From contig CAJFIN010000001.1 of the NCBI GenBank assembly GCA_904381335.1, forward strand, positions 1 to 64,000: 64,000 bases of DNA, written 5' to 3'. Source of the stretch: Candidatus Neoanaerotignum galli. Its GTDB lineage: Bacteria > Bacillota > Clostridia > Lachnospirales > Anaerotignaceae. Position numbers and translations under genes: made by a program. The notes beneath the pieces were generated by a model that was not told the origin of the DNA, did no database searches, and was given only the letters and a program-made list of their open reading frames with translations. Position 1 is the stretch's first letter; each line of letters opens with the position of its first letter. Positions 1,397 to 30,541 of the stretch are shown here, in pieces.

Positions 1397-1763
1397 CCAG
1401 ATTTCCTCCCCCTGTTGCCGTGTACTTTAGGCTTGTCCTGTGCCACAACCACAGATATCTAGCTAATTAAATTATTATACTATGTACTATCAGAAAATAC
1501 AATCAATAAAATCCGCTCAAAACTCCCTTTTTTCGTAAAGGCGAAGGAGAAAACCCTCCAGTAAATTTCACTATTATTTAGAACATTTCTTTAATTATCT
1601 GGAATCGCCTTAAATCCTTCTTTGCGCATCTTTTAGATAAAGCCTTGATTTTTCAGGGGTTTTACGTTTTTTACGGCACAAAGGTTCAGCCAAAATTCTA
1701 TTTAATAAAAAGATCGTTCTATTTGTCAGAACAGGTTTTTTCTAAAAAACTTTCGGTCAGGGC

Positions 1764-1794
1764 TTGACTTTCTAGGGTGGGCATGCCTTATAAT
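1764..1794 (+). promoter_or_regulatory. Putative sigma-A promoter for the acl-like pair
   Basis: TTGACT (1764-1769) and TATAAT (1789-1794), 19-nt spacer; upstream of a 7-bp 5'UTR hairpin (AAGCCCC/GGGGCTT, 1808-1829) and an AGGAGG RBS. Confidence 0.55.
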
Positions 1795-1867
1795 AAAGAA
1801 GAAAGGAAAGCCCCCCTCTCTTGGGGCTTCCTCACAGAACAATACCATCTTCAAAGGAGGAATTCAA

Positions 1868-2323
1868 ATGGTAGGAGAGAAAGTAGTACTGCACGCAATG
1901 ATGAAAGGCAGCGATGGCCATTACGTTGGCGGCCTGGTAAACGGCGCTCGTATCGTTCATTTCTGGGGCGATGTGGGAACGGAATTGATGGTTCGTGTTG
2001 ATGGCGACATCAGCTTGTTCCTGGGCTATGAAGAAATCAACTTCACCGCTCCTGTATACGTTGGCGACTTCATGGAATATGTTGGCTGGATTGAAAAAGT
2101 AGGCAACACTTCCTATACCTGCAAATTCGAAGCTTACAAAGTAGCTACCATGTGTGACCGCACCGATATGGATATGACTGGTCTGGAACATACCGCAGCT
2201 ACCGCTTGTGTACCTCCCATCCTTTGCGGCACTGCTACCGGCAGCCTGTACATCGCTAAGAAGGACCAGAGAGGCGAAACCGACCCTGCGTTCGTTCATG
2301 AACACACGGTGAAAAAGAAATAA
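1868..2323 (+). CDS. Hotdog-fold 3-aminoacyl-CoA (beta-alanyl-CoA) ammonia-lyase-like protein, copy 1
   Basis: HYVGGLVNGARIV..WGDVGTELMV.VDGDISLFLGY...FTAPVYVGDFMEY.GWIEKVGN.SYTC.FEAYKVAT matches my recollection of Clostridium propionicum Acl and the Kal family. Confidence 0.82.
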   Translation: MVGEKVVLHAMMKGSDGHYVGGLVNGARIVHFWGDVGTELMVRVDGDISLFLGYEEINFTAPVYVGDFMEYVGWIEKVGNTSYTCKFEAYKVATMCDRTDMDMTGLEHTAATACVPPILCGTATGSLYIAKKDQRGETDPAFVHEHTVKKK

Positions 2324-2390
2324 AACTGACCACATCAGCGGACAAACCTATTTTTCCAAAACAGAATTTTTTGTATAGGAGGAATTGAAC

Positions 2391-2846
2391 ATGATCGGAT
2401 CTAAAGTAGTACATCACGTGATGATGAGAGGCGCTGACGGCCATTACGTTGGCGGCCTGGTAAACGGCGCTCGTATCGTTGATATGTGGGGCGATGTTGG
2501 TACCGAACTGATGGTATATGTTGATGGTGATATCAGCCTGTTCCTTGGCTACAAAGACATCAAATTTACCGCTCCCGTATACGTTGGCGACTTCATGGAA
2601 TATCATGGCTGGATCGAAAAGATCGGTAACTGCTCTTACACCTGCCACTTTGAAGCTTACAAAGTAGCTACCATGTGCGACCGCACCGATATGGATATGA
2701 CTGGCATTGCTCACACCGCCGCTACCGCTTGTGTACCTCCCGTACTTTGCGCTACTGCCACTGGCAGCCTTTATATCGCAAAGAAAGACCAGAGAGGTCC
2801 TCAGCATCCTGATTTCATGGATGCAAAACACAACAGCTCCAAATAA
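2391..2846 (+). CDS. Hotdog-fold 3-aminoacyl-CoA (beta-alanyl-CoA) ammonia-lyase-like protein, copy 2
   Basis: Tandem paralog of the preceding gene (roughly 80% identical by eye); RBS AGGAGG before ATG 2391. Confidence 0.82.
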   Translation: MIGSKVVHHVMMRGADGHYVGGLVNGARIVDMWGDVGTELMVYVDGDISLFLGYKDIKFTAPVYVGDFMEYHGWIEKIGNCSYTCHFEAYKVATMCDRTDMDMTGIAHTAATACVPPVLCATATGSLYIAKKDQRGPQHPDFMDAKHNSSK

Positions 2847-3273
2847 GAATTCCTTTTGCGAAGAGCTCCCATCATTGGATGGGAGCTTTTTTATCCCAAA
2901 ATCTAAGGGGCAGGTGCTCGGTTTTCTGCCGCCCTGCCCCAACTGTCTCCTTTTACCATATCCTGTGCCTACACGAGCCTTTGTGCCTTCGCGAAAACCA
3001 GTCCTTTTCTGCATCCTTGCCAACGGGTAAAGCTATTTTTTCTAGCCTCCTACTTTTCCTTTTTGGTTACATTTCGCTTTTCTTTCTTCCTTCTGTTCCT
3101 TTTCTTTTTCCCTTTCGAAGCCGGTTCAAACATCCCCTTTTTGTGCAAAACAGAAAACTTGATCCAAAGGGATATAAAATTTAAGCTCTTTCTTGCTCGA
3201 AAGTTTGTGAAGAAAATAGTACTAATTTTGTACCAGATTTATCCCCTATCCCCGGTCAAATTGTTTATAACTT

Positions 3274-12166: not shown

Positions 12167-12433
12167 CCGTGCGCCTGCTTTCGACTTTTTCCCCAAGGCG
12201 CGAACCAATGTTTGAAGCTCAGGCTAAGCGCCCTTGCGGCACACAGAAGTGGTTACTTAGTGCTGCTTCCTTCCGGACCTGACACGGTTCATAAGTTCCT
12301 GTTGCACAAGACTCAGCCGTCAACACTCCGCCCAAAGGGCAGACCCAAGAAGAGCAAAGCCTCAAAGTCAGGCGTCACCCCCACTCTAGCGGATTGTGGG
12401 TACAAGGCGCCGCTACTGCCCCGGCTAGCACGG
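12167..12433 (-). ncRNA. ffs: Signal recognition particle RNA, large bacterial type with Alu domain
   Basis: Reverse complement contains ATGAACCGTGTCAGGTCCGGAAGGAAGCAGCACTAAG (domain IV) and CCGTGCTAGCCGGGGCAGTAGCGGCGCCTTGTACCC...AATCCGCTAGAG (5' domain), ending GTCGAAAGCAGGCGCACGG. Confidence 0.95.
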
Positions 12434-25356: not shown

Positions 25357-26517
25357 TCATAATTTCTGCATTGTCTCAATGATATAATTGGTCAATTCTT
25401 CATTGGTAGCGCCATCTGCCCGGCCCGTGGTATAGACCTTCCGTTCCGTAATGGTGCAAATATCCAATGCTTTTTCCAGCTTCTGAGCTTCTGCCTGACA
25501 ACCGATATGGCTCAGCAGCAGCACCACAGCTCGCATAATCGAACAAGGATCAGCATACTGAGCGCGGCCTTCCTGCACCATGCGGGGTGCAGAACCATGA
25601 ATCGCTTCAAACATGGCATATTTATGACCGATGTTGCTGCTGCCGGCAGTACCTACGCCGCCCTGGAATTCTGCGGCCTCATCAGTGATAATATCGCCAT
25701 AGAGGTTGGGCAGTACCATCACTTGGAATTCTTTGCGGCGGTTTTCATCAATTAATTTTGCCGTCATAATATCAATATACCAGTCATCGGCTTTGATATT
25801 TGGATATTCCTTCGCGATGTTATAGAACACTTCCAAAAACTTACCATCGGTCGTTTTGATGATATTGGCCTTGGTTACAGCGGTAACTCTGGTCTTACCA
25901 TTTTTTCTGGCATATTCAAACGCTGCGCGGATGATCCGTTCCGTACCTTCCTGGGTGGTTACCGTAAAGTCAATATTCAGGTCATCCCCCACAGCAAAGC
26001 CCTTGCTGCCAATGGCATAGGCGCCTTCTGTGTTTTCCCGGAAGAAAGTCCAATCGATTCCCTGTTCTGGCACCCGTACTGGCCGCACATTTGCAAACAG
26101 ATCCAGCTCTTTTCTCATCTTTACATTGGCGCTTTCAATATTCGGCCAAGGATCGCCCTTACGGGGCGTTGTGGTGGGGCCTTTCAAAATGACATGGCAC
26201 TGTTTCAGCTCTGCCATCACATCATCAGGGATCGCCTGATTGGCTTCCACACGGTGCTCAATGGTCAGATTATCAATATCTTTGAACACCACTTTGCCCT
26301 CTTTGATCCAGTCAGCCAACAGATATTCCATCACTCGTTTACCCTGGGCAGTAATGGCAGGACCAATGCCATCGCCCCCAGCTACGCCAATCACAATGGG
26401 CTTTAAGGTGGAAAAATCCAAATCCTCTTTATTGGCATTCATCATTTCTGCCCGTTTCATCTGTTCTTCCAGAAGTTTCTCAAACTGTTCTTTTGCCTCT
26501 TCAATGGTATATTTCAC
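25357..26517 (-). CDS. Isocitrate/isopropylmalate family dehydrogenase (probable isocitrate dehydrogenase)
   Basis: GVAGGDGIGPAIT, KGPTTTPRKG, FRENTEGAYAIGSKG, NLYGDIITDEAAEFQGGVGTAGSSNIG. Confidence 0.88.
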   Translation of the reverse strand: MKYTIEEAKEQFEKLLEEQMKRAEMMNANKEDLDFSTLKPIVIGVAGGDGIGPAITAQGKRVMEYLLADWIKEGKVVFKDIDNLTIEHRVEANQAIPDDVMAELKQCHVILKGPTTTPRKGDPWPNIESANVKMRKELDLFANVRPVRVPEQGIDWTFFRENTEGAYAIGSKGFAVGDDLNIDFTVTTQEGTERIIRAAFEYARKNGKTRVTAVTKANIIKTTDGKFLEVFYNIAKEYPNIKADDWYIDIMTAKLIDENRRKEFQVMVLPNLYGDIITDEAAEFQGGVGTAGSSNIGHKYAMFEAIHGSAPRMVQEGRAQYADPCSIMRAVVLLLSHIGCQAEAQKLEKALDICTITERKVYTTGRADGATNEELTNYIIETMQKL

Positions 26518-26519
26518 TG

Positions 26520-27932
26520 TTATTCCCTTCCTTCTTCTTCCTGCGTACCTTGATCAGCCTTAGCCTTTTCATCCAGCTCTTTTTTCGTCTTTAAGCAAAG
26601 CTCTTCCAATTCCCCATCCGTAATCACTGTCACACGACCTTGATTATACTGTTCGTTCACCCAGTGATACATAATCTCCACCAACGGATCAGTCTTTTGC
26701 ACCATGGCATCACCAGTAAGATGGAAGTTCGTATTGATCCAATGGGCGATACCCGAAGTGCCGGAAGTATTAGAAATCGCAATCTTTACAGGGCGATTAA
26801 GCAGTTTTTCTGTATTAAAGATATTATAGATCTCTTCATTTTTCAGCAGACCGTCTGCATGGATCCCCGCCCGGGTAACATTGAAGTTTTTCCCCACAAA
26901 AGGCGTCATAGGCGGGATCTGGTAGTGCAGTTCTTTTTCAAAGTATTCGGCAATTTCCGTAATCACAGTGGTATCCATACCATCTAAAGTTCCTCTCAGC
27001 TGGGCATATTCAAATACCATCGCTTCCAAAGGCGTATTGCCGGTACGCTCACCAATGCCAAGCAGTGCACAGTTGACGCTGCAGGCGCCATACAGCCAAG
27101 CATAAGAAGCATTATTCACCGCCCGGTAAAAGTCGTTATGCCCATGCCATTCCAGCCATTCACTGGGCACACCGGCATGGTTGACCAGACCATAAACAAT
27201 GCCTTCTACGCTGCGGGGCAAAGAGCAGCCCGGATAGGTAACGCCGTAACCGAGCGTATCGCAAGCCCGAATTTTTACCGGCATACCCGTTTCCTTACTT
27301 AGCTTCATCAGCTCCGTAGCAAACGGCACCACAAAGCCATAAAAATCAGCCCGCGTAATATCTTCAAAATGGCAGCGAGGGATAATTCCTGTTTCGATGC
27401 ATTCTCGCACCACCGCCAGATAATGGTCCACTGCCTGATGACGGGTCATATGCATTTTATGGAAAATATGATAGTCGGAGCAGCTCACTAGGATACCTGT
27501 TTCCTTTAGACCAATCTCTTTTACCAGTTGGAAATCCTTTTTCGAGGCCCGGATCCAGCTGGTGATTTCAGGAAACTCATATCCCTTTTCCAAACACCGG
27601 TATACCGCTTCCTGATCTTTTTTTGTATAAAGGAAAAATTCGCTCATCCGCACAATACCTTTGGGACCAGAAAGCCGGTGGAGCAAATCAAAAATATGGG
27701 TCATCTGCTCTACGGTATAGGGCTGGCGGGATTGCTGCCCATCGCGGAAGGTGGTATCAGTGATCCAAATCTCCGAAGGCATCTCCATAGGAACAATACG
27801 GCGATTAAACACCACCTTAGGTACTTCATCATACTGGAAATATTCCCGGAACAGATTCGGATCCTTGACCGAAACCAAAGGATAGTTCTGCTCCGCGCTT
27901 TCCAGAAGGTTTGTTCTGGTATTAAAATACAT
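26520..27932 (-). CDS. HMGL-like/homocitrate-synthase-family protein, probable Re-citrate synthase
   Basis: WITDTTFRDGQQSRQPYTVEQ; EWHGHNDFYRAVNNASYAWLYGACSVNCALLGIGERTGNTPLEAMV; directly upstream of an isocitrate dehydrogenase gene. RBS AAGGAGGG before ATG 27932. Confidence 0.72.
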   Translation of the reverse strand: MYFNTRTNLLESAEQNYPLVSVKDPNLFREYFQYDEVPKVVFNRRIVPMEMPSEIWITDTTFRDGQQSRQPYTVEQMTHIFDLLHRLSGPKGIVRMSEFFLYTKKDQEAVYRCLEKGYEFPEITSWIRASKKDFQLVKEIGLKETGILVSCSDYHIFHKMHMTRHQAVDHYLAVVRECIETGIIPRCHFEDITRADFYGFVVPFATELMKLSKETGMPVKIRACDTLGYGVTYPGCSLPRSVEGIVYGLVNHAGVPSEWLEWHGHNDFYRAVNNASYAWLYGACSVNCALLGIGERTGNTPLEAMVFEYAQLRGTLDGMDTTVITEIAEYFEKELHYQIPPMTPFVGKNFNVTRAGIHADGLLKNEEIYNIFNTEKLLNRPVKIAISNTSGTSGIAHWINTNFHLTGDAMVQKTDPLVEIMYHWVNEQYNQGRVTVITDGELEELCLKTKKELDEKAKADQGTQEEEGRE

Positions 27933-28027
27933 TGGCATTCCCTCCTTTTTCATTGTTCGGAACAAAAGAGCCGTTCTCATATGTAACCGGATGACAAAGG
28001 GAAACAGATTGACTGGGATTTAGGGAA

Positions 28028-28430: not shown

Positions 28431-28476
28431 ATAAAAGACCTATCTGCTTTTCTTCTCGGTTTGAAAAACAGATAGG
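28431..28476 (-). terminator. Intrinsic terminator at the end of the 28.43-29.50 kb protein-empty transcript
   Basis: Minus strand CCTATCTG...CAGATAGG followed by TCTTTTAT. Confidence 0.65.
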
Positions 28477-29501
28477 CCTTTATTGCATTTCTGGTTCTAA
28501 CACAGTTTAGTCTCCTTTTTTCTTGTGAAAGAATTCTTCCATTTACGGTATTCAGTTGTCTGTCACATTCTTTTGGAAACCTTTTTTTTCACTCGATTTC
28601 TTACTCCTGGGCGTTATATCTAACTGAAACGCCAATCTTTATTTGTTTCCGAAGATTGTGAGGTTTGCATTAGATGAATCGAACCTAGCCTCTATGATGA
28701 GAAAATCCCTTTTCTCAGTGCATTATGGCTGATTTTTTTACTTTGTCCTATCGGATTTTTCTTATTTTCTTTTTTACTTCTTACTTCTATTTCTTTTTTT
28801 CCGATTCGGATTTTTGGATCTGACTCCAAAGTCTCTTCATCTGCTGCCATTGGCTTGGAACTGGTCGAAAAAAGCACGGCATCTTTTTTTCCATTGGATC
28901 CTTCAGGAAATAGAGATGAGGATTTTCTTTTTCACCAAAAACCTTTTTGTTTTCCCCTTCTCCTGTCCTTCCCATCAGCCTTTTGGCTGTTCAGAAAAAA
29001 GGAAAAATCTCGTTTTGGTGTTACTTCTGGCAGTAAAACCGGTATCTCCGAAGATCTTTTTTGCCTAGCCCAACATTCCTTTTCGGTATGTTTCTTGTGG
29101 CGCCTTGGGATCGGTCTTTTACTGCAAAACGTCTGACAGTTGGTCTTTCTTCCCTGTTGGCACCTTTTGTTCCAAGGAATTACTTCGATGAAAATATCCT
29201 ACATGGTTTTTTTAGCCGTTTCCCCCTTTCCTGTCTTTCAGGAATACTCCTTATTGACCTTCTATTTTGAAAAAAGTACTTTGGTGTTTCGATGAGAACA
29301 AGACCGCCGGTTTGGAATGATTGTGTTTCGAATCCTGCCGCCCGATTGCGGTTGATTCTTCTTCTCTTTGATCCGGAAGGGGTTTGGATCTGAATTCCTT
29401 CAAACTTCCAATCAGCTTGCCTCTGTTTTTCTTTTTGAAGGAGGTTGAATAAAGAGGAAGAAGAAGGATCTTGTTGGTCGAATCACCGTTTCCTTTTTCT
29501 T
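28431..29501 (-). ncRNA. Candidate ~1.07 kb non-coding transcript (unclassified)
   Basis: Promoter TTGACT-17-TATACT at 29508-29536, no convincing ORF on either strand, local hairpins, terminator at 28431-28476. Confidence 0.4.
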
Positions 29502-29507
29502 GTCTTT

Positions 29508-29536
29508 AGTATAACCAAAAAAACAGTGAAAGTCAA
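29508..29536 (-). promoter_or_regulatory. Near-consensus sigma-A promoter facing the protein-empty block
   Basis: Minus strand TTGACT (29531-29536), 17-nt spacer, TATACT (29508-29513). Confidence 0.65.
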
Positions 29537-29581: not shown

Positions 29582-30163
29582 TTACTCTTTACAATACAAT
29601 AGTTCATCTTTCCTTTGGTGCAGCCACTCTTTTAACACCTGCAAATCGGCTTCATACACGGACAAAAGGTTCCGATCATAGATCACTGCTGCCGGATGGT
29701 AGAGCGGAAAAAGCCAAAACCCTTCCCGCCGCAGCATCTGACCATGAAATTGGCCAATGACCACCTTTTCTGGCAAACATACCGCCTGCAAAGCCACATT
29801 CCCCAGCGTAATCACTAACCTTGGCTGCTGAAATGCTATTTCCTGATGTAAAAATGGCAAAAAGGCTCGAATTTCTTTTTGTGAAGGAGGACGGTTAATG
29901 GGACGGTTCGTTTTAGGGCTAAGACGAGTTGGCCGGAATTTTACCACATTGGTCACATATAGTGCACTGCGCTCCAATCCAATCTGATGCAAAAATCCAT
30001 TGAGATTTTTTCCTGCTTTTCCCACAAAGGGCCTTCCCGCCGCTTCCTCTTCGCCGCCTGGGGCTTCACCAATCAGCATAATTCGTCCCTCCCCCTCGCC
30101 AAAGACCAGCTTTTGATTCGGAAATTGCTGGGCCAATGCTTGTTGGGCCTGTTCCTTTGTCAT
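29582..30163 (-). CDS. Uracil-DNA glycosylase family protein (family 4-like)
   Basis: GEGEGRIMLIGEAPGGEEEAAGRPFVGKAGKNLNGFL; VTNVVKFRPT; PLYHPAAVIYD. Confidence 0.9.
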   Translation of the reverse strand: MTKEQAQQALAQQFPNQKLVFGEGEGRIMLIGEAPGGEEEAAGRPFVGKAGKNLNGFLHQIGLERSALYVTNVVKFRPTRLSPKTNRPINRPPSQKEIRAFLPFLHQEIAFQQPRLVITLGNVALQAVCLPEKVVIGQFHGQMLRREGFWLFPLYHPAAVIYDRNLLSVYEADLQVLKEWLHQRKDELLYCKE

Positions 30164-30185
30164 GACTTTCCTTTCTCCTTTCACT

Positions 30186-30541
30186 TGTCCACAACTTGGT
30201 TCAGTTATCCACAAAAAACAGGGGATAACTTTTCTTTTTATCCTCTTCTTATGCTAAATCTTGGGGGGAAGTGGACAACCGAACCCAAAATCTCGGTTCG
30301 AAAAAATACCAGTGGAAAAATCTGCACTGATACACGCCCTGGCGGTTGACAAACTGGAATGAGGAAATCGAAAGAAAAGCGTCTGAATCGTTCCAAGACA
30401 AAGGAAGAAAAAATCCCCATTTTTCAGCCTTTTCTCGAAAATATCCGGCAATTTTTTCTAAAAAGTCCCGCCGTTTTTGCCTCCATTTCCCAGATTCCCC
30501 TAAAAAGTTATGCACCCTATCCACAATTGGGCTGTGGATAA
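30186..30541. promoter_or_regulatory. DnaA-box cluster in a ~380-bp intergenic region
   Basis: TTATCCACA 30205-30213; TGTGGATAA 30533-30541; near-matches TTGTCCACA (30186) and CTATCCACA (30517-30525, inverted pair with 30533). Confidence 0.5.

Follow-up and report, generated by a model that had tools for sequence, protein, structure and literature searches.

What does a kilobase of bacterial DNA encode when it has its own promoter and terminator but no convincing open reading frame (ORF)? The question is raised by a block on the minus strand (28431-29536) of the first 64,000 nucleotides of contig CAJFIN010000001.1 from Candidatus Neoanaerotignum galli, hereafter the window. A sequence-only reading had proposed a long non-coding RNA (ncRNA) here, with a decayed gene as the main alternative. 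Orthologues in five genera, stems with compensatory change, no Rfam match and no conserved frame all favor the ncRNA, and we regard the block as very likely a gene for a structured RNA. What such an RNA may do is a more tentative matter, which we approach through a putative ribosome-binding sequence that has no start codon.

A predicted transcription unit conserved in five genera

The unit is delimited by the following features.

29508..29536, minus strand: sigma-70-type promoter TTGACT-17-TATACT, conserved in position in each of the 12 orthologues whose 5´ end is available
28431..29502, minus strand: predicted transcript of ~1.07 kb, its start deduced from the -10 box and its extent from the promoter and terminator positions (orthologues ~0.64-1.14 kb)
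28431..28479, minus strand: intrinsic terminator hairpin, identified by folding; a strong hairpin occupies this position in all orthologues and covaries in model R1 and alignment A4

The promoter lies exactly where it had been placed (29536-29508), with a spacer of 17 and a consensus match of 10/12. In isolation it is within chance expectation (six promoter-like sites in 2 kb versus 4.1 +/- 2.2 in shuffles); its positional conservation in the 12 orthologues speaks for it. The terminator was confirmed by folding (28479-28431), having been missed by a strict consensus scan because of its long loop and interrupted U-run. The second hairpin proposed, at 28410-28387, can be confirmed in the sequence, but relatives showed no counterpart. 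The ~1.07 kb unit with its own signals thus holds in the sequence and in relatives, and the minus strand is indeed purine-rich (~61% purine).

Comparison with related genomes, one of the checks suggested by the sequence-only reading, yielded orthologues in 13 genomes from five genera (g1, g4, g9, g11 and g15) of one family of related Clostridia, each with a single copy of ~0.64-1.14 kb and the same promoter and order of parts. When the block was compared by BLAST with 60 relatives, some of them metagenome-assembled, collinear pieces emerged in the two other genomes of the source genus, and the 3´ end in two g4 genomes. The g15 and g9 orthologues were found by reading the DNA downstream of the uracil-DNA glycosylase gene in other genera. 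We ran two models on all 58 family genomes, R1 being a covariance model of the 3´ end and R2 a sequence model of an internal conserved segment, island B. These independent models of the RNA's two ends gave identical top nine loci (E 1e-4 or better, such E-values being rough), and R1 additionally found four of the five g11 genomes.

The glycosylase gene precedes the unit in four genera, with a separate terminator-like hairpin after the gene in G001 and g9. The g11 copies are located elsewhere, beside a divergent gene identified by eye as isochorismatase-like, with the order of parts unchanged; association with the glycosylase gene is therefore not obligatory. A copy is detectable in 5 of the 17 family genera and in none of the other 12. 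In one negative g9 genome the contig ends 272 bases past the glycosylase gene. On the glycosylase tree the positive genera cluster without forming one clade (5 changes versus a shuffled mean of 11.4). This clustering, with the shared location in four genera, fits an RNA that is old in the family and has been lost, or has diverged beyond detection, elsewhere; transfer is also possible. Searches outside the family with the exact motif of the 3´ island T, the island B pattern and R1, over the order and a sample of the class, recovered only coding genes or ordinary terminators. Model R3 gave only weak matches in 38 further family genomes, those inspected being coding sequence or ordinary gene ends, and phage records, plasmid records and viral contigs held no convincing match. 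A scan of genome contigs returned four already known members and one chance match in a Saccharibacteria record.

The block's longest ORFs encode 93 amino acids antisense and 62 sense, in keeping with the earlier remark that no ORF was convincing. Seven of its ORFs were compared with Pfam, without a match, and no reading frame is conserved in relatives. Close orthologue pairs can be aligned in each of the six frames, with breaks, a pattern expected for RNA and not for a gene. A decayed protein gene or functionless spacer might be argued from the lack of a long ORF, the rapid sequence change and the 12 genera with no detectable copy. However, the alignment pattern is unlike that of a coding relic, the ORFs compared show no Pfam trace, and five genera have kept promoter, islands, stems and terminator. 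The last of these contradicts the alternative, which we find barely credible.

At the gathering threshold, a scan of the whole window and seven relatives with Rfam 15 (4227 families) gave no match in the RNA block; in the window it found the large signal recognition particle (SRP) RNA and one tRNA, both outside the block. Permissive scans added only generic hairpins there, with no family match. This Rfam check was among those suggested by the sequence-only reading, and OLE, GOLLD, ROOL, HEARO and raiA-motif RNA, which we take to be part of the library tested, gave no match. A literature search found no report of this RNA. The block is thus a member of none of the 4227 families tested, while being of the same general kind as the large structured bacterial ncRNAs.

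Folded domains and conserved islands

Between promoter and terminator, comparison of the orthologues (9-13 sequences for the structures) resolves stems that change in sequence and short islands that are kept.

29269..29499, minus strand: 5´ domain with P1 as its closing stem (5´ arm 29499-29469, 3´ arm 29303-29269), from own-versus-other arm pairing and fold z-scores
29228..29244, minus strand: hairpin P2, TTCCTG-AAAGA-CAGGAA; g1 and g4 relatives have a hairpin of another sequence in this position
29205..29229, minus strand: island B, AAAGGGGGAAACGGCTAAAAAAACC, a Shine-Dalgarno (SD)-like sequence without a start codon, from alignment A3, anti-SD ranking and model R2
28676..28692, minus strand: island C, degenerate in the source genome (GAGGCTAGGTTCGATTC; relatives GGAGGCTNGGGTCCAATG), from comparison with orthologues
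28563..28661, minus strand: domain closed by stem P3 (28661-28645 with 28581-28563), with an inner hairpin at 28633-28610; a stem of other sequence occupies this position in g1, g4 and g11
28549..28559, minus strand: island D, ACAACTGAATA, in 9 of 13 orthologues (g1, g4, g11)

Wherever an orthologue includes its 5´ end, its first 30-35 bases pair with a segment ~100-200 bases downstream. The arms of this stem, P1, differ in sequence between genera and even within g1, yet their mean pairing is -18.7 kcal/mol with their own partner versus -8.7 with arms from other genera, and in 10 of 12 orthologues the own pairing is better than every pairing with another genus. In all 12, the fold of the 5´ domain is more stable than that of its dinucleotide shuffles (z -2.0 to -5.3); for the remainder of the RNA, z runs from -1.0 to -4.7, negative in all 12 and weak in some. 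P3 lies between islands C and D in g1, g4 and g11 (own arms -14.6, other-genus arms -8.3), and g15 has a similar stem after island C. The covariation check therefore came out in favor of P1 and, more weakly, of P3. As the stems fail to align at the sequence level, the RNAalifold consensus fold of the C-D alignment contained no pairs. Conservation without a conserved frame and compensatory change in stems are two traits of a large structured ncRNA; a discrete transcript, the third, is predicted from promoter and terminator.

Several motifs picked out by the sequence-only reading fall on these elements. A copy of its TCGAaacAcc motif (29292-29283) is the 3´ strand of P1, its TTCCTG-AAAGA-CAGGAA hairpin is P2, directly before island B (29244-29228), and its CAATCTT...AAGATTG hairpin overlaps one arm of P3. 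The hairpin TGAGAAAA-GGGA-TTTTCTCA (28717-28698) is present in the source sequence, with no equivalent detected at this position in relatives. As for the islands themselves, C (consensus GGCUNGRGUCCRAUG, variable) precedes P3, and D (consensus CAACUGAAUA) follows it, 118-144 nt past C. A tRNA- or tmRNA-like reading of island C found no support.

A micro-ORF against the terminator

The 3´ end holds a feature that the earlier reading overlooked, a 7-codon ORF with an SD directly before the terminator (28517-28480).

28512..28517, minus strand: SD of the micro-ORF at the 3´ end, AAGGAG; its spacing to the start codon is 7-8 nt in g1, g4 and g15, and g11 has a weak SD or none
28480..28503, minus strand: island T with the micro-ORF GTG TTA GAA CCA GAA ATG CAA TAA (MLEPEMQ); start, core and in-frame stop in 13 of 13 orthologues

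Island T has the consensus GUGUUAGAACCAG followed by an in-frame stop against the terminator, and every orthologue has a start codon and then 7 or 9 codons to the stop. From these signals, translation of the micro-ORF is likely. The whole RNA might then serve as an mRNA whose leader, very long and structured, controls through its fold the translation of a micropeptide MLEP... of 7-9 codons. All 13 orthologues keep a start (GTG, ATG or TTG), LEP and an in-frame stop while using all three kinds of stop, the SD is well spaced in three genera, and g11 has one synonymous CAA/CAG change. However, the core is conserved at the nucleotide level, g15 and g9 show non-synonymous changes, the peptide tail varies between genera, the SD is weak in g11 and the structured part far exceeds what known leaders for such peptides need; on balance we consider such a messenger unlikely.

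The stop codon directly adjoins the terminator stem or runs into it, as it might if the RNA were a cis-acting leader in which the micro-ORF encodes an attenuator peptide and the terminator controls readthrough into the next gene. The gene beyond the unit differs between genera, however, and is convergent in G001, G002 and G005, leaving no common cis target, and a leader of this kind is highly improbable.

We also followed a resemblance to HPF, since the hpf gene of a distant genome ends in GLLEPEYI and HPF proteins of the family end in LIEPE or similar. That link was set aside: hpf is intact elsewhere, and in the g9 and g11 micro-ORFs the likeness is limited to LEP, so we judge it a coincidence. 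The same applies to the 3´ end of the distant gene (L183, middle), where CTG TTA GAA CCA GAA TAT ATT TAA plus a terminator matches the micro-ORF model. As a separate observation, G005 has two near-identical hpf-type genes in tandem (L204, about positions 1500-3050).

A putative ribosome-binding sequence without a start codon

Island B (consensus AAGGRGGAAACSGCUAAAA; g11 has a AAGGGAGG- or AAGGAGG-type sequence) sits after the 5´ domain. With the 16S tail assumed to be the universal CACCUCCUUU, island B forms the strongest duplex with the anti-SD in 11 of 13 RNAs and the second or third strongest in the other two. None of the 13 has a start codon at working distance behind it. Ordinary ribosome binding sites of genes in relatives (L122, L154; AAGGAGGAAACGGCTATG, AAGGGGGAAAAGGCTAATG) are almost identical to island B with a start codon present, so that B looks like such a site minus its start codon. 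A start-stop ORF behind B (ATG-TAR) in g1 and g9 was rejected, being absent in g4, g15 and g11, ~17 nt from the SD and paired in the g9 folds.

What a strong SD can do when no start codon follows is known from cry3A mRNA, where a 30S subunit on the STAB-SD blocks RNase J1 (PMC4113751), and in Bacilli leaders of the STAB-SD type stabilize very long untranslated transcripts (PMC3997798). We lean, at somewhat better than even confidence, toward a new family of large, stand-alone structured RNA, with the source RNA as its type member, that is, by this analogy, probably stabilized through island B and acts in trans as a ribonucleoprotein. The RNA would be started by its own promoter and ended by its own terminator, as the conserved signals suggest, and comparison points to a fold of 5´ domain (P1), hairpin P2, variable middle and P3 as the second closed domain. 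Docking of a 30S subunit to island B would shield the downstream RNA from the 5´-3´ exonuclease RNase J, and the MLEP micro-ORF would probably be translated. The stabilizing role, taken by itself, is tentative, a little short of an even chance. For the effector step we can offer a guess: the RNA may work in trans, as a ribonucleoprotein or scaffold that touches the translation machinery, with proteins or ribosomes as partners, comparable to OLE RNA.

Several observations weigh against this explanation. Island B is ~190-275 nt from the predicted RNA start, farther from the 5´ end than in cry3A; the RNA may have a processed 5´ end. An SD-like site as strong as B was reached in 5-77% of shuffles per purine-rich RNA, so the functional argument comes down to B's fixed place. 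Island C is degenerate in the source genome, island D is missing in g9 and g15, and the own pairing of P3 tops every other-genus pairing in just 5 of 9 orthologues. The transcript itself is predicted from promoter and terminator signals, and no partner gene is linked in all genera.

The SD-like islands could instead be the active part, capturing 30S subunits on a folded scaffold to lower or regulate initiation or to store subunits. The strongest anti-SD sites in g1, g4 and g15 are mostly islands B, C and T, and the invariable lack of a start codon behind B would suit such capture. Against it, island C has no SD part in g11, and titration would require a very abundant RNA; we think this quite unlikely. 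If true, a long ncRNA that captures 30S subunits would represent a mechanism for which no bacterial parallel is known.

Genomic surroundings

29582-30214, minus strand: uracil-DNA glycosylase gene (Pfam match), upstream flank of the block
26520-27980, minus strand: HMGL-like synthase gene (Pfam match), other flank of the block

A further promoter-like site, TTGACT-18-TAAAAT (28217-28188, minus strand), probably serves the downstream HMGL-like gene. Directly after this gene, which is of the homocitrate-synthase type, comes an isocitrate/isopropylmalate dehydrogenase-like gene (25357-26517, minus strand); we presume that the pair (25357-27980) could be a Re-citrate synthase and its isocitrate dehydrogenase. 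The bacterial large SRP RNA (RF01854, 174 bits; 12167-12433, minus strand) is an ordinary housekeeping RNA.

Relation to known large RNAs

OLE RNA, at ~600 nt compared with ~1.07 kb here, is likewise large, highly structured, stand-alone and found in anaerobic Bacillota. Through an SD/anti-SD mimic it binds ribosomal protein bS21, a physical link to the translation machinery (PMC12054373). OLE carries an anti-SD mimic, whereas the new RNA carries SD-like islands and has no match to the Rfam model. ROOL and GOLLD are large bacterial RNAs with elaborate folds and unknown function (PMC12286853); the new RNA shares their size and elaborate fold, but matches neither in Rfam, is not seen in phage or plasmid records or viral contigs, and has a vertical chromosomal location in four genera. 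The STAB-SD of Bacillus thuringiensis cry3A is similarly a strong SD in an untranslated stretch without a start codon at working distance (PMC4113751). That element, however, is at the 5´ end of a coding mRNA, while island B is internal (190-275 nt) to an ncRNA and recognized here from sequence. The raiA-motif RNA (ModT) is, like the new RNA, a structured ncRNA conserved in Bacillota (PMC11706538), but again there is no Rfam match, and carrier genomes have an hpf (raiA-type) gene elsewhere.

The new RNA, of up to 1.1 kb, evolves fast, yet keeps its promoter, stems and islands across genera, and has no match in Rfam 15. To our knowledge, only a handful of bacterial RNA families are this large, and their functions are mostly open. 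The putative ribosome-binding sequence, lacking a start codon, offers a direct way to test whether a large RNA, 30S subunits and RNA decay are connected.
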